From Cycloclasticus sp. (GTDB taxonomy: Bacteria > Pseudomonadota > Gammaproteobacteria > Methylococcales > Cycloclasticaceae), in contig JAHRWG010000192.1 of the NCBI GenBank assembly GCA_019090295.1, positions 1 to 13,246 on the forward strand: a DNA stretch of 13,246 nucleotides, written 5' to 3'. Each line of letters begins with the position of its first letter. The first letter of the stretch is position 1. Shown here piece by piece: positions 3,027-13,124 of this stretch. The position numbers and the translations under genes are program-made. The notes under the pieces were generated by a model. It searched no databases, had not been told where the DNA came from, and saw only the letters and a list, made by a program, of their open reading frames with translations.

Positions 3027-4148
3027 TTATTGTTTGAAGTTAAGCCTAATGCCAACAAACGCTTGATAGCGATCATATTCATAAACTGGGTCATTTGATG
3101 CATAATTATCCGATCTAAGCCCAATAAAACCAGTGAGTGGCATATTACTTGTCGCATTGAATTCTCTTTCAGCACCAAGCTTCAAAGTGTAGCCCTGCTT
3201 GCCAGGTAAATCCTCATCATTTTCATTCGTAATGGATGAATTGTTGTACTCGTAATCCTCATAACGTGTTTTGAGAAATAGCTTTACCCCAGTATCTAAC
3301 TTGTATAATAAATCGGCAGTATAAAGTAGTTTATCAGTATCATAATAGCCAAACCCATTGTCGGTTCTTTCTTCATACTTTATACCCACATCTGCGGTTA
3401 GTTTTGATGTGAGTCTGCAAAGGTGTGATAGCTCAATTGAATGATAAAAATATTTAAGATCGGAATCAGACACCAAGGCCCCTGCTTTTGTTTTTGTACG
3501 TCTATCATCATAATCCCGCTCCCCAACAGCAAGGGTAAGGCCAAATTTATTACGCTGGTTGTTTCTGTATGTCCACGTATTTAATAAATTTACTTGTTCG
3601 TAATCAAGATTACTTAACCCTGCTAAGTTCTGATCATCATAGCTTCTATTGTTGTACTTTAATGTTAATGCCGTACTTACATTTTGACTGAGTTTTATTG
3701 AACTTGAACCAAGTAATTTCCAATAGTCATAATCATAACGGTCACCTATTTCTTGAGCACCAGATAGCCCAACAGAACCAGTAGAACGGCTGACATATGT
3801 TTTATCTTTGAAACCGGTCTCAACACTTAGTCTTGAGTTGATTTTTTGACCCATTAGGGTGTTTTTGTTTTTGTATAGTCCCTTCAAAGATCCCGTAAGA
3901 ACATCAGCATCGTTAAATGAATTCTCATATTCACGGTTCTTAATACGCCCGCTGATTTTGAACTGACCAAGTCGTTGAGATACCAAGAAATTGCTGTCAA
4001 CAAACCAAGCCTCGTCATGATCTAGGTTGTCCGCTAAACGATAGGGGTTAGAATCATAGCCAGGAGAGACGGCTGCTTTAATGTCAACGGCATAACTGCA
4101 GTTTGAAAATGAGGCGACAAGAGCGCCACAAAATAAATAAGTCTTCAT
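3027..4148 (-). CDS. Predicted outer-membrane beta-barrel protein
   Basis: A 373-residue exported protein. Residues 1-20 form a signal peptide with cleavage likely after SYA (residues 18-20). The mature part opens with VSPGYDSNPYR, an opening typical of putative beta-barrel porins found in polysaccharide loci (BBP2_2-like). Polar and aromatic residues then alternate in repeated strands to the end (for example FFLKTRYEDYEY-like and YQAFVGIRLNF patterns). About 350 mature residues suggest roughly 14-16 strands. The last aromatic is the third residue from the C-terminus (NFKQ), so the usual terminal-Phe sorting signal is slightly extended. A ribosome binding site (AAAGGAT) precedes the ATG, and only 23 bases separate it from the upstream TPR gene, so it is the last gene of the operon. 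By position it may be the outer-membrane exit or anchor for whatever the other two proteins make. I do not recognise a specific orthologue. Confidence 0.8.
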   Translation of the reverse strand: MKTYLFCGALVASFSNCSYAVDIKAAVSPGYDSNPYRLADNLDHDEAWFVDSNFLVSQRLGQFKISGRIKNREYENSFNDADVLTGSLKGLYKNKNTLMGQKINSRLSVETGFKDKTYVSRSTGSVGLSGAQEIGDRYDYDYWKLLGSSSIKLSQNVSTALTLKYNNRSYDDQNLAGLSNLDYEQVNLLNTWTYRNNQRNKFGLTLAVGERDYDDRRTKTKAGALVSDSDLKYFYHSIELSHLCRLTSKLTADVGIKYEERTDNGFGYYDTDKLLYTADLLYKLDTGVKLFLKTRYEDYEYNNSSITNENDEDLPGKQGYTLKLGAEREFNATSNMPLTGFIGLRSDNYASNDPVYEYDRYQAFVGIRLNFKQ

Positions 4149-4171
4149 TTTTTTATCCTTTTTTCATTATA

Positions 4172-6046
4172 TTAATTAGTCTTACTGGCGATGATGGTGT
4201 TTTTTAACTCGTTAGTTAATTGGTGATGTTGGTCGAGTTTTAAAATATTGTTGGTCTCATTAAGCGCTTGAGTAGGTAACTTATTTTGGTAGTAAGAAAA
4301 GGCTAGCCAATAACGCGCCTCTATGTCGTTTGCTTGTAATTCTATTATTCTTGCTAAATAGCGTTGAGCAAGGGTGTATTGAGACTGCTTTATTAATACT
4401 CTAGACACTTGGCGAAGTGTTTTAATGTCAGATGGTTGAAGGGTTAAAACATCCCCATATGTTTGTATAGCGCCCCCGGGGTTATTTGTGGCGACTTGTA
4501 GAGTGGCTTTTAAGTCTAGACCCCGCACATAATCTGGATGGTCCATCAGAAGCTTATCGGTAACCATTAATGCTTGTTTAGGGCGTTTTAATAGGTATAA
4601 AGCTCGGGCCTTGGTCAGTAGGTAGGTTTTGTTGCCACTATCAATGTCTAGTGCAAGGTTAATCGCTTTTAAGGCATTGCTGCCCTGGTCTAAATGCTCA
4701 TAAGTTAATGCCAGCTCAAAGGGTAAGAAGGCTGTCGTGTTATTATGCTGCGCAAGTAATTGGTAGTCATTAACGGCTTGATTGTATTGTTTGCGCGAAC
4801 GCTTAATTCTAGCTATTTGAATGCGCGCGCGCCAATGATAGGTTTGACTGTTTAGTAAAGACTCAAACAACGGAAGGGACTTTTTATACCGCCCAGACTT
4901 TCGATATGCGAGAGCTTTTAAATACTGAAGTTCTTCAGATTTATTGCTTGCTTTTGTTGCGCGCAAAATCAGCTCTTTATATTGTTTGTTTGCAAATAAA
5001 GCCAGTAATACAGCCAGTTGCTTTTTAGACGGTGATACCTCGTGCTGGTTTAAGAAAAGCAGGTGTTTTTTAGCATTATTACGTTTTCCTTGTTCTAAGT
5101 AGGCCCAAGCTAAAAGTCGATGACGCTTTAACTCAATGCCCTGTAAACGAAGCCCTTTAAATGATTTGATAATGCTGGAGTAACTATAATGCTGTAGTTG
5201 AGAGGTTGCTCTAGCCGTTAATAATAAAGGGTCTTTAGGGTTAAGGGAGACGGCTTTTTTAAACGCATCATTAATGTCTATATAAGGTGCATTAGATGCA
5301 CTTAACGCCTTGCCAAGCTGCAGCCATGTTTGGGCGTTATTCGGTTGGTACTCAATAGATTTTTTGTAGTTTTTTACCGACTCTTCGTAACGAGACAGTT
5401 GGTATTCACAACTGGCTAAGCCAGCTAATGCTCTGGATTTCTTATAGCCACTTGATTTCTTTGCCGCCTCTTTAAAGGCTAGGATGGCAGCTTCACATGT
5501 GCCTAACCTTTTTAATAGAAGCGCCCGGTTGAAAATAGCTGAAAAGGCATTGGGTTTATGAGCCGTATACAATTCATACTGTGCAATAGCAGCAGGGCTA
5601 TTGCCTAGTTTTGATAGTGTAAAAGCAAAAGAAAATTGAACGCCTTGCTTAATTCGTTGTTCAGGAGAGAGACTAGAAAGCAGTTGCTCCGCATTTTTAT
5701 AATCAGATTTTTTTAGTAATTTAGATGCGGTGTTAGTAATAATGTTTGCATATGTGTCAGCAGTTAAGGTTGAAAAAGGTTTGTTGCCAAGCGTGCTTTT
5801 AATGGGTAGCTTGTCGGACTCGATACTCTGTAGTAATCGGTTCACAAGTTTACTATGTCTGTCGGAGCTTAAAATGTTGCTGTGTGCCGGCTCAATGCCA
5901 CTATCTACACTGCCCTTAATCGATACAGTTATAGGAGTGGGGGCTGCTGATTTTAAAAATATTTCAGCGAAAATAATGAGGCCCATCAGTAAGCAGGCAA
6001 TAATTAAATAGGGGAGTCCAGTTTGAAAAAAGCGTATTCTGCTCAT
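4172..6046 (-). CDS. Membrane-anchored periplasmic TPR protein
   Basis: A 624-residue protein with one N-terminal membrane helix (about residues 11-31, after MSRIRFFQTG), so most of the chain should lie in the periplasm. From about residue 130 to 615 it is built of helical repeats with TPR spacing, about ten or more. Examples are AFKEAAKKSSG, NYKKSIEYQPNN, AINLALDIDSGN and RIIELQANDIEA at repeat ends. No enzyme motif is seen, so a scaffold role is likely. In several exopolysaccharide exporters (PgaA, AlgK with AlgE, BcsC) a periplasmic TPR part guides a polymer to a barrel; the barrel gene directly downstream suggests a similar arrangement. Its ATG follows the stop of the preceding gene with no intervening base (TAAATG), implying translational coupling. 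The likely Shine-Dalgarno lies inside the last codons of that gene. Confidence 0.85.
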   Translation of the reverse strand: MSRIRFFQTGLPYLIIACLLMGLIIFAEIFLKSAAPTPITVSIKGSVDSGIEPAHSNILSSDRHSKLVNRLLQSIESDKLPIKSTLGNKPFSTLTADTYANIITNTASKLLKKSDYKNAEQLLSSLSPEQRIKQGVQFSFAFTLSKLGNSPAAIAQYELYTAHKPNAFSAIFNRALLLKRLGTCEAAILAFKEAAKKSSGYKKSRALAGLASCEYQLSRYEESVKNYKKSIEYQPNNAQTWLQLGKALSASNAPYIDINDAFKKAVSLNPKDPLLLTARATSQLQHYSYSSIIKSFKGLRLQGIELKRHRLLAWAYLEQGKRNNAKKHLLFLNQHEVSPSKKQLAVLLALFANKQYKELILRATKASNKSEELQYLKALAYRKSGRYKKSLPLFESLLNSQTYHWRARIQIARIKRSRKQYNQAVNDYQLLAQHNNTTAFLPFELALTYEHLDQGSNALKAINLALDIDSGNKTYLLTKARALYLLKRPKQALMVTDKLLMDHPDYVRGLDLKATLQVATNNPGGAIQTYGDVLTLQPSDIKTLRQVSRVLIKQSQYTLAQRYLARIIELQANDIEARYWLAFSYYQNKLPTQALNETNNILKLDQHHQLTNELKNTIIASKTN

Positions 6047-8485
6047 TTAAAATGCACCTAAAGCAGCAGCATGCATGCCTTGGTTGTTGATATTTTGTAT
6101 TTCAAGCCCTGGACGACCATTGACTTCTAAGACTAAAGGCCCTTTTTGCTCATCAATGCATATATCAACCCCCATATAACCAAGAGGGATTGCTTGGTAG
6201 CATTGTAAGGCTATTTGTTTTATGGCAACCCAGTGAGGAAGCTGAATACCTTGAAGAGATGTGCCATTATCAGGGTGTTTTTGAATAATGCTACCTTCAA
6301 GTAAGCTGCGACCAGTGATGCCTGTTGGTAGGTCTATAGATGTGCCAACGGCACCTTTATGCAGGTTAGCCTTACCTTGAGACTTTACAGTTGGAACCCT
6401 AAGCATGGCGCTTAATAACTGCCCGTTAGAGACGATAATTCTAATGTCGCATAAACCAAGAGGCGAAATGGTTTTAAGGCTCTCTTCTTGCTGAATTAAT
6501 GGCTCAAGATAAGCAGAATCTGTAGTGCCACTTTGAGAAAAACTCCCAGAGAGAATTTCTTCAATATGCTGCTTAATGGCCGTCCTAGGCCAATTTTTCC
6601 CCGATGTGCTGGTGAAAGATGTCCCTTTCCGTTCATTTAGTAATAGGATCCCATTGCCACGAGCGCCTTTGTTTGGTTTTAAGGCGAAGTGCTCGTTGCA
6701 CATAAGAGAGTCATCTATAAAGGACTGAATATCACCAAACCTTTGACAAACACCAAGTGTGTCTGGGCAGGGGATGCCAGCTTGAGACAGGCACTCTTTT
6801 GTTTTTAGCTTATCTGTAGCCAGTTGCAACAAGGCTGGGCTGTTATGCGTGTAAATTAGGTCTCTATTTCGTCCGTTAATGCTAAGGACTTGCTTCTCAG
6901 TATTACCGATTAATGTTTGAAATCTAATCAGCTCAGAAATGCGCATTCCTGACCAACTGCCAATGAATAGTTGAACGGCTAAGGTGGTAATTAATAACTC
7001 CGGGTATAAAGAAAAAAGCCCTTGAAGTAAAAAAGACGTAAAAACTAAGTAACAAAGTGACAGGGTAAATAAGGTACCTATTGAGTTTTGCCAAAGCTCC
7101 TGCCAGCTACTCTCATTGGTCATTTGGTGAATACGATCAGCCGCAAAGCTAATAATAACGACAGGAAATAACATCAATAGTCCAAATTCAATGTTTTGAG
7201 GTACATCGGTGCTTGCAATAGCAATGAGTGAAACGATGGTGGTAATCGTAATAATGGCAGCAAGGCGAGGGATTTTAAGAATCTTAAATTGACCTAAAAT
7301 AGTATGGCCGATAAAGGCTAGTAAAAGAACTAAAGAGAAGCCTACAAGGCCGGTGAAAAACCCTGTATAAACGCTGGCTGCGGCAATCAGCATAGGCATG
7401 AAAATACCAATGGTCTTTATGCCGACTATGTTGCGTAAGAAGGTTATAAGCAGGGTGCAAATTGGAAACAATAAAAAGATGTAGCTAGTTTTCAACGGCA
7501 GCCCTAAGGACTGTAGCAAGGCGACAGAATTAGGAAAAAAACTGTCTGAAGATGAAGTACTCCTATACAAAGCGGGTGCGATATTGATTTTTTTTGATGT
7601 GAAGGCGTAATCAAAGTTTATGTTGCTAGTGTGCTTGAACAGATGCTGATCACCACGATAAAGAGCAAGATAATGACTTGGAAGCTTGGCGAAATGCCCA
7701 TTAGTTGGATCAAAAGGCACCCAGTTTTCTTGTATAAAAACCTCAACCCACTGGTGAGATGTCTTTTTCTTTTCACCATTTAAAACAACACCACCAACTA
7801 GGCGTGTGGGTAAGTTGTTTAATCGCGCTAGGCTAGAAAAAAGTCGGCTTTTTCCATTGCAGCTTGCAGCATTAAGGCGCAAAGCCGTTAGTGAGTCGGT
7901 AAAACCTTTAAAGGGCAGTGTACGTATTTCATCATGTGTATAGTTGTAGATGGCTTTGAGTACAGCAAGGGAGCTAGTTGTATCAAGTGGTTTTATTTGC
8001 GCCCATAATGCTTTTATTTCCACGTGATTAACGGGGATTGCAGCTGTGCTATTGAGTGAGGCAGCTAACCCGTCTTCATAAGTGGAAGGAATGCGTACAT
8101 TTTCAGAGATATTAAAATGCGTTTCCTTTAATGACACTAAAGCACGATAAATAATGCTTTTATGCCCAGTATTACTGCTCCATTGTGCATAACGGCCTTC
8201 AGGGCTTTTTAAAAATTCAAGCTCGTAATTAGCTGAAGTAATGGTTTCATTAAGTATTTCAGTACGGTTGTTGTTATCTGGTAGGTAGGTTGAAACACTC
8301 ACGTCACTGTCGGTATTGAATGACATTGACACGCTATATTGAAAAACACTTTCAAGAAATAGCTGCGTGTAAAGCGTCTTCTCATGCAGAATGTGCGTCG
8401 TCAGAATAACGAGAGAGATTAGCATTAAGCTAATATGTGGACGAAATAAAGTACTAAGGTGTTTGTTGCGTGAGCGAACAGACAT
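6047..8485 (-). CDS. Transglutaminase-like / seven-TM / ATP-grasp ligase fusion protein
   Basis: An 812-residue inner-membrane protein with three parts. A helix at about 16-34 anchors a probably periplasmic region holding a transglutaminase-like core at about 170-265, with the triad C209 (ASCNGKSR), H244 (SHQWVEVF) and D259 (VPFDPTNG). Seven predicted membrane helices follow at about 333-512. The C-terminus (about 545-800), probably cytoplasmic, is a RimK/glutamate-ligase-like ATP-grasp domain with K603 in KPNKGARGNG, E661, R682, N707, D774 and the metal-binding pair E787/N789 in LEVNGRPGLE. ATP-grasp ligases join a carboxylate to an amine. In many Pseudomonas-like bacteria these parts are encoded separately (UUP1-family 'inactive transglutaminase' 7TM protein and an alpha-L-glutamate-ligase-like protein); here they are fused and the triad is intact. 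AGAGG lies seven bases before the ATG. It is the first gene of the operon; substrate and product are unknown. Confidence 0.85.
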   Translation of the reverse strand: MSVRSRNKHLSTLFRPHISLMLISLVILTTHILHEKTLYTQLFLESVFQYSVSMSFNTDSDVSVSTYLPDNNNRTEILNETITSANYELEFLKSPEGRYAQWSSNTGHKSIIYRALVSLKETHFNISENVRIPSTYEDGLAASLNSTAAIPVNHVEIKALWAQIKPLDTTSSLAVLKAIYNYTHDEIRTLPFKGFTDSLTALRLNAASCNGKSRLFSSLARLNNLPTRLVGGVVLNGEKKKTSHQWVEVFIQENWVPFDPTNGHFAKLPSHYLALYRGDQHLFKHTSNINFDYAFTSKKINIAPALYRSTSSSDSFFPNSVALLQSLGLPLKTSYIFLLFPICTLLITFLRNIVGIKTIGIFMPMLIAAASVYTGFFTGLVGFSLVLLLAFIGHTILGQFKILKIPRLAAIITITTIVSLIAIASTDVPQNIEFGLLMLFPVVIISFAADRIHQMTNESSWQELWQNSIGTLFTLSLCYLVFTSFLLQGLFSLYPELLITTLAVQLFIGSWSGMRISELIRFQTLIGNTEKQVLSINGRNRDLIYTHNSPALLQLATDKLKTKECLSQAGIPCPDTLGVCQRFGDIQSFIDDSLMCNEHFALKPNKGARGNGILLLNERKGTSFTSTSGKNWPRTAIKQHIEEILSGSFSQSGTTDSAYLEPLIQQEESLKTISPLGLCDIRIIVSNGQLLSAMLRVPTVKSQGKANLHKGAVGTSIDLPTGITGRSLLEGSIIQKHPDNGTSLQGIQLPHWVAIKQIALQCYQAIPLGYMGVDICIDEQKGPLVLEVNGRPGLEIQNINNQGMHAAALGAF

Positions 8486-8653: not shown

Positions 8654-8824
8654 TTATTTAAAAACACAGTGCTTTGCAAAGTCAGTGGCTTGGCTCGTTG
8701 ACCAGTCACTTTTTGTTTTTGCTTTCATGTCTGAGCACCACTGCTCTGTCCCAATGTCAGGGGAGCAGGCTGTTAGCAACGTTAAAAAGGCTGAGGCAAC
8801 AAGTGTAACGATAATTTTTTTCAT
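8654..8824 (-). CDS. Small lipoprotein, DUF3012-like
   Basis: A 56-residue protein starting MKKIIVTLVASAFLTLLTAC. Residues 1-19 are a lipoprotein signal peptide with lipobox LTAC, the lipidated cysteine being C20. Serine at position +2 (C-S-P) predicts outer-membrane rather than inner-membrane retention. The mature 37 residues read SPDIGTEQWC, then DMKAKTKSDW and FAKHCVF, which matches the DUF3012 family of tiny gammaproteobacterial lipoproteins as I recall it. Two conserved-looking cysteines (C30 and C53) could form a disulfide. Function is unknown in the family. AAGGAT lies just before the ATG. It follows the hybrid kinase gene by 61 bases on the same strand and may be co-transcribed or use the weak promoter in the gap. 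A longer 62-codon frame on the other strand overlaps it but has no comparable features. Confidence 0.88.
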   Translation of the reverse strand: MKKIIVTLVASAFLTLLTACSPDIGTEQWCSDMKAKTKSDWSTSQATDFAKHCVFK

Positions 8825-8884: not shown

Positions 8885-8903
8885 ATTAAGAACTCCTCTT
8901 AAT
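8885..8903 (-). repeat. AT-rich inverted repeat overlapping the kinase stop codon
   Basis: On the minus strand ATTAAGA and TCTTAAT form a perfect seven-base stem with loop GGAGT, overlapping the end of the kinase gene. A run of six T residues (8872-8877) follows after seven further bases. That is too far for a standard terminator, so at most it is a weak attenuator between the kinase and lipoprotein genes. Confidence 0.35.
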
Positions 8904-11900
8904 GTTTTTTTCTCTTAAGTGAGCCAGTAAATCGGGAAAACTATTTAAGGTCCGTTTGATGGCGGGGATATCAAAAATAGTGACGTAGTCAATCAACTGT
9001 TGCGCATACTTTTCTATGGCTTGGATGGGGTAGCGCTCGGTGATCTGAAGGGTTTTATTGGCCAATAGGGAAATGTCTGATAGGTTATTATGTTCAGAGG
9101 CACTTATGAACTGGCTGAGTAATTGCTCAAGCTCTTCAATAGCGAAAGGTAGCACGTCGTATTCGACTTCAGATAATGTAACTGTTTTTTTAACCGGACT
9201 ATTAATGGCCTGGGTGTCACAGGGTAAAAAAGTTGATAGCAGCTCAATTAACTTAGTTTTAAGAACAGGTTTTCTTAAGTAGTTATCAAAGTTCTCAGAT
9301 TTAACGCGCTCAAAATCGTCGAGCATAACGGAGGCGGTTAAGGCGATGATAGGGGTGTTGGAGGACTGCTTTATTTTCTTAGCAGCCTCATAACCATCCA
9401 TAACAGGCATACGAATATCCATAAGAATAAGATCAAAATTCTGATGTTTAGTTAGTTTGACGGCCTCGAGGCCATTTTCTGCAGTGGTAATATGCAGGTT
9501 GGAGTCGGCAAAGCTTGCGATTAATAGGTCACGGTTATCCTTTACATCATCCACAATTAAAATAGAGGCAGGCTTGAAGATGATGCTGTGTTGTTCTAAC
9601 GTGCTATCGTGGTTGTTTTCTCTATCGTTTGGCGTGAGTGATGCAACATCAACCCCTAAGAGGGTGGTAGTAAAGGTTGAGCCTTGGCCTAGTTGGCTGT
9701 TGAGTGAGAGTGTTCCTCCCATCATTTCAACTAATCGCTTACTAATGGACAACCCTAGTCCAGTCCCACCATATTGCCGACTGTCTTGACCGCTCGACTG
9801 TTCAAAAGCTTGGAAAATAAGTTGTTGCTGTTTTTCTGAGATACCAATACCGGTGTCTTTAACACTAACCAGTAAATCTAATGTGCTATGAATAACATCT
9901 TCATTAGTTGTTTTAAGTTGTATTTCAATGCTACCTTTTTCGGTGAATTTAATAGCGTTCCCAATGAGGTTGAGAAGCACTTGGCGTAGGCGAGCCTCAT
10001 CTAACTGTAGGCTGTCTGGTATCTTTGGGTCGATCACTAATAATAAGTCGATATTTTTTTCAATGAGCTTTAGGCGGAAAATATCTGCTAGTTCATTGAT
10101 TAATAGAGTGGGGCTGCAAGGGTGTTTTTCTATATGTAGTTTTCCCGCTTCAATTTTGGATAAGTCAAGAATATCGTTAATCAAAACCAATAGACTATTG
10201 CCAGCGGACTGAATGGTGTTAATAAATGATTTAAGGTGCGGTTCTTTAACTTGCTCATTCAGCAATTCGGTAAAGCCGAGAATTGCATTCATTGGGGTTC
10301 GAATCTCATGGCTCATATTAGCCAAGAACTCAGACTTTGCATGGCTAGCGGCCTCGGCATATTCTTTGGCTTCACCCAGTGCTTTTTCGAGCTCTAGACG
10401 CTCGGTCATATCAACTGCAATGGCTAAAAGCGCGGGGGCTTCTTGATAAGTAATAGGGGTTATAGAAAGCATCATAGAGCGCACGTCCCCATTTGCTTTT
10501 TGGATAGGAACAATTTTCTGCTCAACCATCCCTTTCTCACTAATTTCCTTTATAACAGCTTTTCGGTCGCCTGAATTTTTGTAAAACTGGAGCATGTTAT
10601 ATTTTCCAAGATCTTCTTTAAGCGCCTCATGATCCTTCAATGTTTGTGGGTTTGCAGAGAGAATACGTCCGTCAAGTGAGGTGACAATAATTTGCAGAGG
10701 AATTTTGTCGAGCAGTATTTGAGTCTGCTGCTCGGCAACTTTCCTCAGAGCAACTTCTTTTACCAGTTTTCTGTTCCAATAGAGGGTGAAGAGAAGGACC
10801 AGTAAGGAAAAGCTTACGACTTGGATAAGGAGGCGATAATTAACTTTCTCGGTATAATTCAGCTTCCCCCATTTGTTGGCGATCTGTTGTTTTTCAGCAA
10901 GGCTAACGCTATTGAGGGCTCGGTTAATAAGAGGTACGAGTGGTATTAACTCCTTGTTTACGCCAAAAGCGAGTTGGGTGTCAAAATCGGTTTTACCGAC
11001 TATTCTAATATTATTAATGCCCATTTCAGATATTTGATAACTGGCCTGAGCAAGTGTGGCCAATAGAGCATCAACCTTTCCAGTTGACACGGCAGTCAGC
11101 CCCTCCTTAAGTGTTTTGACGGTCTCAAAATGTATGTGAGGGTAGTGTTTTACAATGTTATCCAAGTTTCCATAATTTTCGATAACTGCAATGCGGTTCG
11201 TTTTGATCTGATCGAGGTTTTCTACATAAGGGTGCCTTTCACCCATAATGATGACGATTGGGCTAGCAAGGTAACTGTCCGTATAGGTTAAATGAGCAGG
11301 GAGTACGGTATTGGTTGCAGACAGAAGCTCAACCTCGTTGTTTTTGACTTTATCAAGAGACTCAGACCATGTACTGGTTGGGATGATGTCGAATTTCACT
11401 CCAAGTCTCTGTTCAATAATTTTCAAATAGTCGGCAACAACACCTATATAATCGCCTTGTTTGTTAAACGCTTCATACGGGAGCCAGTTTGGGTCACCAG
11501 CAAAGCGAATGCTCGGGTGGCTGTTTAGCCACTCCCTCTCGGAGCGGCTAAGCTGGAGGGAAGGAGCGGGTGGTTTTTGTTTGCCCAACCACCTTTCGCT
11601 GATGCTAATTCTTTCCTCTTCTGATATAGCATCTAACCCTTTTTGGATGATGGAGGCTAATTCAGGCAGTGCTTTCGACGTTGCAATATGAATATGTTTT
11701 TCACCCAAATAGCCTGTGGATTTAAAAGGAACAATGGTGTTAATGCCTTTCTTTGAAAAGGTGTACATAAGCGAACCATAGGTATCATAGAGCAGTTCGG
11801 CCCGTTGCTCTAATACAGCATCAATTGCCTGACTAAAGCTGTCAACAGTAACAATTTCTATTCTAGGGAAGTGTTTTTGCAAGAATGTTATGTGGGCATA

Positions 11901-13124
11901 ATCCTTTGGAACAGCAACACGCAAGCCGTCTAAGTCTTCTAGTGTTTTTGCAGCGACTCCCTCCCGAATAAAAAAGAAATCGAGGACCTCAAAATAAGGC
12001 GTTGAGAAATTGAAGTATTGGGTGCGTTCATCTGTGTAGTAAACAGCACCGAGTAAGTCTATTTTATTCTCTTTTGCTTTTTGTAGATTGACCTTCCAAG
12101 GGGCAATATTAATATCAAAAGAGAGCCCAGTCTTTTCTGCGATTAACTGTAGGTAGTCGTTTGCAATGCCGCTGTACTCTCCTTTTTTATTGGTGAAGTT
12201 AAAAGGTGTCCAATCTGGACTGCCCCCTACGAAAACTAAGGGGGTTTTATTGAGCCATGCTTGCTCTTCGGTAGTGAGTATAACAAGCTTATTTCTTGCT
12301 TTAGGTGTTGCCCCCAGCCACCGGCTATAGATTATTTGTCGCTCCTTTTCGGTAATGGCATCCAGCCCCTTTTGAATAATGGAGGAGAGCTCAGGCTCAC
12401 CTTTTCGGGTGATAATATGAATAGGGTTTACACCTAATTTCCGGGTTGATTTAAAAGGAATAATTGTATTAATACCTTCTTTTTTTAAGGCATAGGCAAT
12501 GGCTGGGTAGGCATCAAAGAGCATATCTGCTCTATTTTCTAAAACAGCATCAATCGCTTCAGAAAAGGTGGAGACAGTAATGATCTTAATTTCTGGAAAG
12601 TGCTTTTTAAGGACCTCTCCGTGAGCATACTTCTCTGGTACGGCAACACGTTTACCGTTGAGTTCGTTGAGAGTTGTAATCGATAGGTCGTCCCGAATGA
12701 AAAAGTAGTCGAGCACATCAATATAGGAGGTTGAAAAGTTAACAAATTGGCTTCGATCTTCGGTGTAATAGGCCGCACCTAAAATGTCAATTTTGCCGGT
12801 TTTAATTTTATTAAGATTATGGCTCCACGTGTCGATAGAGAGTACAAAATTTAAGCCTGTTTTTTGGGCAATGAGTGTTAAGTAGTCGTTAGCGATACCA
12901 CTGTACTCCCCACTGGTATTAACGAAGTAAAAAGGTGCCCAGTCAGGCCCGCCGCCTAAAAACACTTGTGGGTGCTCTATCATCCAATGACGCTCTGCTT
13001 TGGTTAACATTACGTCCTCTGCGGCTCTGCTTATTTGGGGAGTAAGAGAGAGTAGTGACAAGAGGCAGAAAAGCATTGTAAGTTGCAGCACACTCTTTTT
13101 CTGGTCAAACGAGTGTTTTCTCAT
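8886..13124 (-). CDS. BvgS/EvgS-like hybrid histidine kinase with three tandem solute-binding domains
   Basis: A 1412-residue inner-membrane sensor. Signal peptide or first helix at about 12-35; three SBP_bac_3 (Venus-flytrap) domains at about 40-272, 283-514 and 525-755; membrane helix at about 762-782; PAS domain at about 800-910; HisKA with H939 in SHEIRTP; ATPase domain with N1056, DTGIG (1090-1094) and GGTGLG (1119-1124); receiver with D1192/D1193, phospho-acceptor D1236 (LMDIRMP) and K1285. BvgS has two flytrap domains and a C-terminal Hpt; this protein has three. Its last 95 residues (about 1318-1410) look like a helical bundle with no Hpt HxxKG motif. R124 and R367 occupy the usual ligand-carboxylate arginine position in domains 1 and 2 but it is missing in domain 3. 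It lies 25 bases after an HD-GYP-type gene, its likely partner. Ligand unknown. Confidence 0.93.
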   Translation of the reverse strand: MRKHSFDQKKSVLQLTMLFCLLSLLSLTPQISRAAEDVMLTKAERHWMIEHPQVFLGGGPDWAPFYFVNTSGEYSGIANDYLTLIAQKTGLNFVLSIDTWSHNLNKIKTGKIDILGAAYYTEDRSQFVNFSTSYIDVLDYFFIRDDLSITTLNELNGKRVAVPEKYAHGEVLKKHFPEIKIITVSTFSEAIDAVLENRADMLFDAYPAIAYALKKEGINTIIPFKSTRKLGVNPIHIITRKGEPELSSIIQKGLDAITEKERQIIYSRWLGATPKARNKLVILTTEEQAWLNKTPLVFVGGSPDWTPFNFTNKKGEYSGIANDYLQLIAEKTGLSFDINIAPWKVNLQKAKENKIDLLGAVYYTDERTQYFNFSTPYFEVLDFFFIREGVAAKTLEDLDGLRVAVPKDYAHITFLQKHFPRIEIVTVDSFSQAIDAVLEQRAELLYDTYGSLMYTFSKKGINTIVPFKSTGYLGEKHIHIATSKALPELASIIQKGLDAISEEERISISERWLGKQKPPAPSLQLSRSEREWLNSHPSIRFAGDPNWLPYEAFNKQGDYIGVVADYLKIIEQRLGVKFDIIPTSTWSESLDKVKNNEVELLSATNTVLPAHLTYTDSYLASPIVIIMGERHPYVENLDQIKTNRIAVIENYGNLDNIVKHYPHIHFETVKTLKEGLTAVSTGKVDALLATLAQASYQISEMGINNIRIVGKTDFDTQLAFGVNKELIPLVPLINRALNSVSLAEKQQIANKWGKLNYTEKVNYRLLIQVVSFSLLVLLFTLYWNRKLVKEVALRKVAEQQTQILLDKIPLQIIVTSLDGRILSANPQTLKDHEALKEDLGKYNMLQFYKNSGDRKAVIKEISEKGMVEQKIVPIQKANGDVRSMMLSITPITYQEAPALLAIAVDMTERLELEKALGEAKEYAEAASHAKSEFLANMSHEIRTPMNAILGFTELLNEQVKEPHLKSFINTIQSAGNSLLVLINDILDLSKIEAGKLHIEKHPCSPTLLINELADIFRLKLIEKNIDLLLVIDPKIPDSLQLDEARLRQVLLNLIGNAIKFTEKGSIEIQLKTTNEDVIHSTLDLLVSVKDTGIGISEKQQQLIFQAFEQSSGQDSRQYGGTGLGLSISKRLVEMMGGTLSLNSQLGQGSTFTTTLLGVDVASLTPNDRENNHDSTLEQHSIIFKPASILIVDDVKDNRDLLIASFADSNLHITTAENGLEAVKLTKHQNFDLILMDIRMPVMDGYEAAKKIKQSSNTPIIALTASVMLDDFERVKSENFDNYLRKPVLKTKLIELLSTFLPCDTQAINSPVKKTVTLSEVEYDVLPFAIEELEQLLSQFISASEHNNLSDISLLANKTLQITERYPIQAIEKYAQQLIDYVTIFDIPAIKRTLNSFPDLLAHLREKNIKRSS
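11583..12986 (-). repeat. Tandem duplication of the first two flytrap domains inside the kinase gene
   Basis: Residues 47-271 (12312-12986) and 290-514 (11583-12257) align over 225 positions without a gap. By hand I count about 136 identities, near 60%. Shared blocks include GEYSGIANDYL, FSxAIDAVLE, GINTIxPFKST and SIIQKGLDAI. Codons at shared residues often differ, so the duplication is old rather than a recent copy. The third domain (about 525-755) is much more distant. Confidence 0.85.

Follow-up and report, generated by a model that had tools for sequence, protein, structure and literature searches.

An unnamed sister of the RloABC operon, with a transglutaminase-like site and a TPR–barrel pair, in Cycloclasticus and several bacterial phyla

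A stretch of 13,246 nucleotides from Cycloclasticus sp. (assembly GCA_019090295.1, contig JAHRWG010000192.1; the whole stretch is called the window below) carries a three-gene operon on its minus strand. The operon encodes a fusion of a transglutaminase-like (TG) domain, a seven-transmembrane (7TM) domain and an ATP-grasp ligase, followed by a tetratricopeptide-repeat (TPR) protein and an outer-membrane beta-barrel. It is a conserved, distinct and unnamed sister of RloABC and is found in several phyla. The two are distinct because the window's type has an intact TG site, and TPR and barrel genes instead of a neighbouring retropepsin. RloABC of Pseudomonas aeruginosa, as described in the portion of PMC12239564 consulted, is the closest characterised relative found. 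An earlier, preliminary description of this DNA had recognised the three-gene unit and its anatomy, and that part stands; the relationship to RloABC had been overlooked.

The operon and its predicted parts

The genes are tightly packed open reading frames (ORFs). The stop codon of the fusion gene and the start codon of the TPR gene are separated by 0 nt, and 23 nt lie between the TPR and barrel genes. The parts are as follows.

6047..8485, minus strand: fusion gene (812 aa) with a transmembrane helix, TG domain, 7TM domain and RimK-like ATP-grasp ligase (ORF, Pfam, NCBIfam, model)
8384..8440, minus strand: first transmembrane helix, residues 16-34, after a positively charged, probably cytoplasmic N-terminus (hydropathy; model helix 16-34)
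7577..8353, minus strand: transglutaminase-like (cysteine-protease-like) domain, residues 45-303, probably periplasmic
7859..7861, minus strand: codon of Cys209, putative TG nucleophile (conserved with His244 among homologues)
7754..7756, minus strand: codon of His244, putative catalytic base (conserved among homologues)
7709..7711, minus strand: codon of Asp259, putative third residue (Gly in 43 of the best 120 homologues)
6959..7495, minus strand: 7TM domain, residues 331-509 (PF14402; model helices)
6071..6871, minus strand: ATP-grasp ligase domain, residues 539-805, RimK/LysX/ArgX-like with conserved motifs, probably cytoplasmic (PF14397)
4172..6046, minus strand: TPR protein (624 aa) with a hydrophobic N-terminal anchor, its TPR region probably periplasmic (Pfam, hydropathy)
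3027..4148, minus strand: outer-membrane beta-barrel (373 aa), 16 predicted strands, signal-peptide-like N-terminal segment (model, hydropathy)

In the fusion, Pfam places Transglut_core at residues 171-260 (E 4e-14), 7TM_transglut at 289-525 (4e-37) and ATPgrasp_ST at 539-805 (1e-60). The scores are 128-133 bits against PF14402 (128.4 in the Pfam scan; curated cut-off 25) and 205.7 bits against PF14397 (curated cut-off 31.4). Numerous TPR models of Pfam match the 624-aa protein. The AlphaFold2 model of the fusion has a mean predicted local distance difference test score (pLDDT) of 92.4 and a predicted template modelling score (pTM) of 0.87, and hydropathy gives a single helix ahead of the TG domain and a cluster of helices behind it. 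Because the positively charged N-terminus is placed in the cytoplasm, the TG domain would be periplasmic and the ATP-grasp domain cytoplasmic; the latter placement fits the need of the ligase for ATP. Thus the three-gene locus of the preliminary description, spanning 3027-8485, is borne out by ORFs, domains and the models of barrel and fusion. Its proposed path from a cytoplasmic ligase through a polytopic TG protein to a TPR protein and an outer-membrane barrel also agrees with the domains and predicted folds, given this probable topology.

Relatives, clades and the transglutaminase site

Conservation of the gene set was followed in 370 genomes drawn from the window's class, which were searched with PF14402 and a barrel profile. 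Loci were annotated with profiles built here (60 bits for ligase and TPR, 40 for retropepsin, 20 for the barrel; gene centres no more than 6 kb apart). PF14402 gave 85 matches in 83 genomes, with 66 classical RloB (>300 bits), 7 of the window's type and 11 of a third type; one 7TM match below the cut-off (G150, 20 bits) was excluded from the locus counts. All seven window-type loci, the window included, have the ligase (fused in two) and the TPR gene, six have the barrel and none has a retropepsin. Leaving out the window itself, the counts are 6/6, 6/6 and 5/6 for ligase, TPR and barrel. Classical RloB loci have the ligase in 66/66 and a retropepsin in 63/66, with TPR and barrel in 0/66 each; third-type loci have a retropepsin in 7/11, a TPR gene in 1/11, and a ligase (at 60 bits) or barrel in 0/11. 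These loci are related by descent and the counts carry no p-value. Chance adjacency of the three genes is rejected on the gene-set counts, and the genes, taken as one unit in the preliminary description, do stay together in related genomes.

A scan of GTDB species genomes, with patterns that include the TG Cys and His, found 191 loci encoding a relative, of which 80 were kept. Within 6 kb, 76 have the ligase, 59 the TPR gene, 53 the barrel and none a retropepsin. Ligase, barrel and TPR occur together in 40 loci, ligase and TPR in 19, ligase and barrel in 13, the ligase alone in 4, and none of them in 4. The counts take in loci cut at contig ends, and they retain L094, from a metagenome-assembled genome, in which the fusion reading is broken up and the barrel lies on the other strand. 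The set overlaps the draw (three identical row pairs in the tree described below). The barrel, TPR and TG profiles derive from the very loci counted here, over which the retropepsin profile was also iterated; the same profile was used for every group.

Relatives occur in Pseudomonadota, and also in Bacteroidota, Nitrospirota, Myxococcota and Calditrichota, where the ligase is unfused in the loci seen. The fusion–TPR–barrel layout is that of many gammaproteobacterial and some alphaproteobacterial loci. Several other gammaproteobacterial loci, as well as L074 of Nitrospirota and L103 of Calditrichota, keep TG-7TM, ligase, TPR and barrel in separate genes. Named strains that have the full gene set include Aliikangiella coralliicola M105 and Marinifaba aquimaris SM1970. 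Bacteroidota loci have TG-7TM, ligase and barrel (the barrel in 14/16, some contigs ending early); four Bacteroidota barrels sit among the 75 rows of the barrel profile. Two Myxococcota loci have TG-7TM, ligase and TPR with no barrel. A lipoprotein-like repeat gene takes the position of the barrel in the Myxococcota locus L106 (14262-15464), and members of its cluster are present upstream in L101, L105, L077 and L100.

Comparison with RloABC showed a common core, namely a PF14402 TG-7TM protein and an ATP-grasp ligase in the same compact operon. The ligase is fused in the window and is the next gene in split relatives, while in RloABC it is the adjoining gene, RloC. The TG Cys and His are intact in the window's type and lost in classical RloB, and the TPR and barrel genes of the window's type are not found in classical RloABC loci. 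Conversely, a retropepsin (40 bits or more, no further than 6 kb away) accompanies nearly all the classical loci counted above and none of the window-type loci in either set (0/7 and 0/80 scanned). The window's fusion reaches 129 bits against the NCBIfam RloB model, whose cut-off is 900, and the window's type forms a clade separate from classical RloB.

The clades were obtained from an unrooted, quick IQ-TREE analysis of 89 TG-7TM sequences, supported by the Shimodaira–Hasegawa-like approximate likelihood ratio test (SH-aLRT) only. Starred branches (98, 99, 100) set apart three groups: 57 window-type rows, 24 classical RloB rows together with one third-type row, and 7 other third-type rows. 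The third-type row inside the RloB clade (L293) is cut by a contig end. The fused form makes one group (100) inside the window's type once two genes labelled as split in the tree, L072 and L078, are recognised as cut by contig ends. The third type (L214 of genome G012, L216, L218, L226, L292, L296) has no TG Cys, and most of its rows fall outside both other clades; where a retropepsin is nearby, it is on the opposite strand in 6 of the 7 loci. Among 18 genomes of the window's genus that were searched, classical RloB was found in 6, the fusion in 3 and the third type in 1, and one genome (G013) has both RloB and the fusion.

The TG site was examined in the best 120 of 677 fusion homologues, so that nearer relatives weigh more. 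At positions 209, 244, 259 and 262 they read CHDN in 75, CHGN in 43, -HDN in 1 and SHDH in 1; thus Cys and His are both kept in 118 of these 120. All seven window-type loci of the draw read CHDN. In classical RloB, the first column has Cys in 0/66 and the second His in 0/66, with no Cys within 8 alignment columns of the first, and third-type loci have the Cys in 0/11 and the His in 4/11. Cys and His are also present in 80/80 of the kept GTDB loci, a circular count that is unused as evidence, as the patterns contain both residues. Pfam and NCBIfam label the TG-7TM family an inactive transglutaminase; the window's protein nonetheless holds both residues. The window's type and the named inactive family are thus told apart by the defining residues, kept in the one and lost in the other. 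Taken from its sequence, the window's protein apparently has a Cys-His-Asp site within a TG fold, with putative catalysis. PDB 3isr, a transglutaminase-like protein of Cytophaga hutchinsonii named only as a putative cysteine protease, differs in that its solved chain of 293 residues leaves no room for 7TM and ligase domains.

It might be argued that the TG domain is a binding domain and not an enzyme, Cys and His being structural, since the missing catalytic residues of RloB point to a family that functions without them. Classical RloB, without Cys and His in 66/66 loci, still gives mutant phenotypes (reported in the part of PMC12239564 consulted), and the third residue varies between Asp and Gly. 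Against this stand the retention of Cys and His in the best-listed homologues and in 7/7 loci of the draw, and the spread of Cys/His clades over several phyla, the loci in other phyla having been found with patterns that contain both residues. We consider a pure binding role improbable.

The barrel and the ligase beside known systems

The 373-aa barrel matched no Pfam or NCBIfam model at E 0.1. Its model (pLDDT 92.4) has 16 strands of 12-16 residues each. In Foldseek the top match in the PDB was the alginate exporter AlgE (E 7.6e-10), while VIA-align gave CdiB as the top match and favoured CdiB/FhaC and porins, so that the two methods disagree on the nearest fold. Membership of a known exporter family found no support in sequence: a PDB sequence search with the barrel profile returned one chain, at E 0.21. 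PgaA and BcsC were not among the structural matches listed, which speaks against neither. Homologues of the barrel numbered 56 by sequence match and 98 by family profile.

Periplasmic TPR parts with outer-membrane barrels are known from exopolysaccharide exporters, namely AlgK-AlgE, PgaA, BcsC and PelB. The window shares this pair with them, as two chains with predicted locations, but its barrel has no sequence match to their families in Pfam, NCBIfam or the PDB profile search. The ligase might then aminoacylate a sugar or polymer made elsewhere, which the TPR–barrel pair would export as an exopolysaccharide. Pfam calls the ligase family sugar-transfer associated, AlgE is the best Foldseek match, and NCBIfam EpsL is weakly matched by 20 of 75 barrel-family members (best E 3.6e-9), the window's barrel excepted. 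This alternative appears distinctly improbable in view of the gene content and the ligase. Neither a glycosyltransferase nor a polysaccharide synthase was found in the six window proteins scanned, as the preliminary description had noted for glycosyltransferases; the neighbours of relatives were not searched for one, and only some recurrent neighbour families were viewed there. Moreover, the closest ligase structures to the ATP-grasp domain are those of RimK, LysX and ArgX, which act on amino acids and peptides. The window's ligase differs from these in being fused to, or in relatives encoded after, a membrane TG-7TM protein, and it scores 260 against TIGR02291, below the cut-off of 314.

An ordinary osmoregulated porin with a general TPR scaffold, co-regulated with the fusion and not part of one machine, would be another way to explain the barrel. 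In the 370 class genomes, the barrel profile matched at E <=0.001 in 57 and above 150 bits in 7, the next best being 44 bits. Six of the seven strong matches adjoin a window-type TG gene. A general porin would be widespread without that type, and this explanation seems very improbable. The seventh (L208, genome G231) stands alone: it is a barrel homologue scoring 179 bits, and the TG, ligase and TPR profiles matched nothing in the 18 kb of DNA around it.

In the literature searched, no paper was recognised as describing the fused or the TPR–barrel form. A 2009 survey of amidoligases may mention forms with an active TG.

Proposed pathway, surroundings and meaning

We tentatively propose, at somewhat less than even confidence, a trans-envelope sister of the Rlo pathway, in which ligation is followed by periplasmic TG processing and by exit or surface attachment through the TPR protein and barrel. 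The cytoplasmic ATP-grasp domain would form amide bonds and, judged by its family, most likely add glutamate or a similar residue to a carboxyl terminus. The attached 7TM domain would move or present the product to the periplasm, where the TG domain might use Cys209 and His244 to cut, transfer or cross-link it, a role perhaps filled in classical Rlo loci by the neighbouring secreted retropepsin. The TPR protein, anchored in the inner membrane, would span the periplasm and pass the product outward to the 16-strand barrel, to be released or attached at the surface. The product is most likely amide-linked, perhaps glutamate-rich. A single machine is the most parsimonious reading. Its strongest points are that the ligase is fused to the membrane protein, that the TG site is kept, and that TPR and barrel go with the intact-TG clade and not with the dead-TG one.

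The known biology of Rlo bears on this proposal. In the part of PMC12239564 consulted, secreted RloA retropepsins of P. aeruginosa cut polyglutamate in vitro, and strains with a triple RloA deletion show hypo-osmotic and antibiotic defects as well as defects of shape and biofilm. When RloB or RloC is lost, the hypo-osmotic growth of the triple mutant is fully rescued and the other defects are partly rescued. In Shewanella, losing an inactive TG-7TM protein leads to more vesicle output, according to the portion of PMC12096838 consulted. These findings support an envelope role for the shared core.

Several observations weigh against the proposed pathway. No member of the family has a known product or activity, the third TG residue is Gly as well as Asp among the best-listed homologues, and the fold match of the barrel is generic. 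Bacteroidota loci have the TPR gene in 2/16 and miss it in 14/16. Barrel-less loci include 4 of Kangiella and 7 of Hyphomonadaceae (some Henriciella), though the Kangiella locus L040 does carry a barrel. In 9/9 genomes with a barrel-less locus (3 Kangiella, 4 Hyphomonadaceae, 3 of them Henriciella, 1 Myxococcota and G245) the barrel profile found no convincing copy, with one match of 23 bits. With barrel or TPR missing in some relatives, neither would be indispensable, or each would have a diverged stand-in. Replacement of the retropepsin would also not be exclusive, because the retropepsin family PF05618 occurs away from the window-type TG locus in 18 of the 23 genomes to which such loci led (5/23 have none). 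The nearest on the same contig lies ~51 kb away (G068), and the window's own genome (81% complete) gave no match.

Modification of the envelope with no export is a further explanation, and one that we hold to be unlikely. The ligase would make a short glutamate-rich tag, which the TG domain would attach to peptidoglycan or an envelope protein, the TPR–barrel pair being the acceptor or a tie between the membranes; turgor and osmotic strength would be tuned as by rlo. It would account for the altered hypo-osmotic survival, shape and cell-wall antibiotic sensitivity of rlo mutants (reported in the part of PMC12239564 consulted), for the loci in which the barrel can be missing, and for two-component genes near some of the 80 loci (11 with a kinase cluster and 11 with a regulator cluster), RstB/RstA-like where tested (L063, L071). 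However, a barrel kept beside TG and TPR in 6/7 loci of the draw goes beyond the needs of a modification enzyme.

The kinase and regulator clusters (L058, L063, L066, L071, L078, L092 and others) lie near the TG gene, often divergently. RstB/RstA models are the best matches, below cut-off, of the L063 kinase and regulator and the L071 kinase, and QseC is that of the L096 kinase. In Bacteroidota (L079, L080, L082, L084-L088, L091, L093), divergent genes beside the TG-7TM/ligase/barrel set resemble a sigma factor, a FecR-type anti-sigma factor and a TonB-dependent receptor, as judged by eye in L084 only.

In the window itself, a large hybrid histidine kinase is encoded upstream of the operon (8886-13124, minus strand), with EvgS as its top NCBIfam match, below cut-off, and three stretches matching periplasmic SBP_bac_3 domains. 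Between it and the fusion gene lies a 56-aa lipoprotein-like DUF3012 protein (8654-8824, minus strand; PF11216, E 1e-15). Downstream of the barrel (455-2885), a CRP/FNR-type regulator gene is divergent from a hydroxylamine reductase gene. The window DNA has 0 tRNA genes and 0 Rfam matches at gathering scores, and promoter (24 vs 27.2 in shuffles) and terminator (15 vs 11.9) scans were not better than on shuffled DNA. A viral origin was rejected: viral contigs held 13 matches to the patterns, and 0 of them were relatives.

A bolder form of the proposed pathway, which we regard as rather doubtful, is a multi-phylum Gram-negative machine in which a membrane-tethered ATP-grasp enzyme makes a non-ribosomal amide polymer (e.g. 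poly-alpha-glutamate), a cysteine transamidase or protease tailors it in the periplasm, and the TPR–barrel pair secretes or anchors it. Possibly this form is ancestral, and the Rlo pathway, with its dead TG and its dependence on a retropepsin, arose from it. If true, the operon would parallel the exopolysaccharide exporters on the peptide side and, should its product leave the cell, form an export route for amide polymers without a counterpart in the literature searched. In Pseudomonas the Rlo pathway bears on survival of osmotic stress, on biofilm and on tolerance of antibiotics, according to the portion of PMC12239564 consulted. The sister system described here joins the ligase/7TM core of that pathway to an apparently intact TG and outer-membrane parts, and with it come marine hosts other than Pseudomonas and a putative catalytic cysteine that could help to find the product of the ATP-grasp/TG-7TM family.

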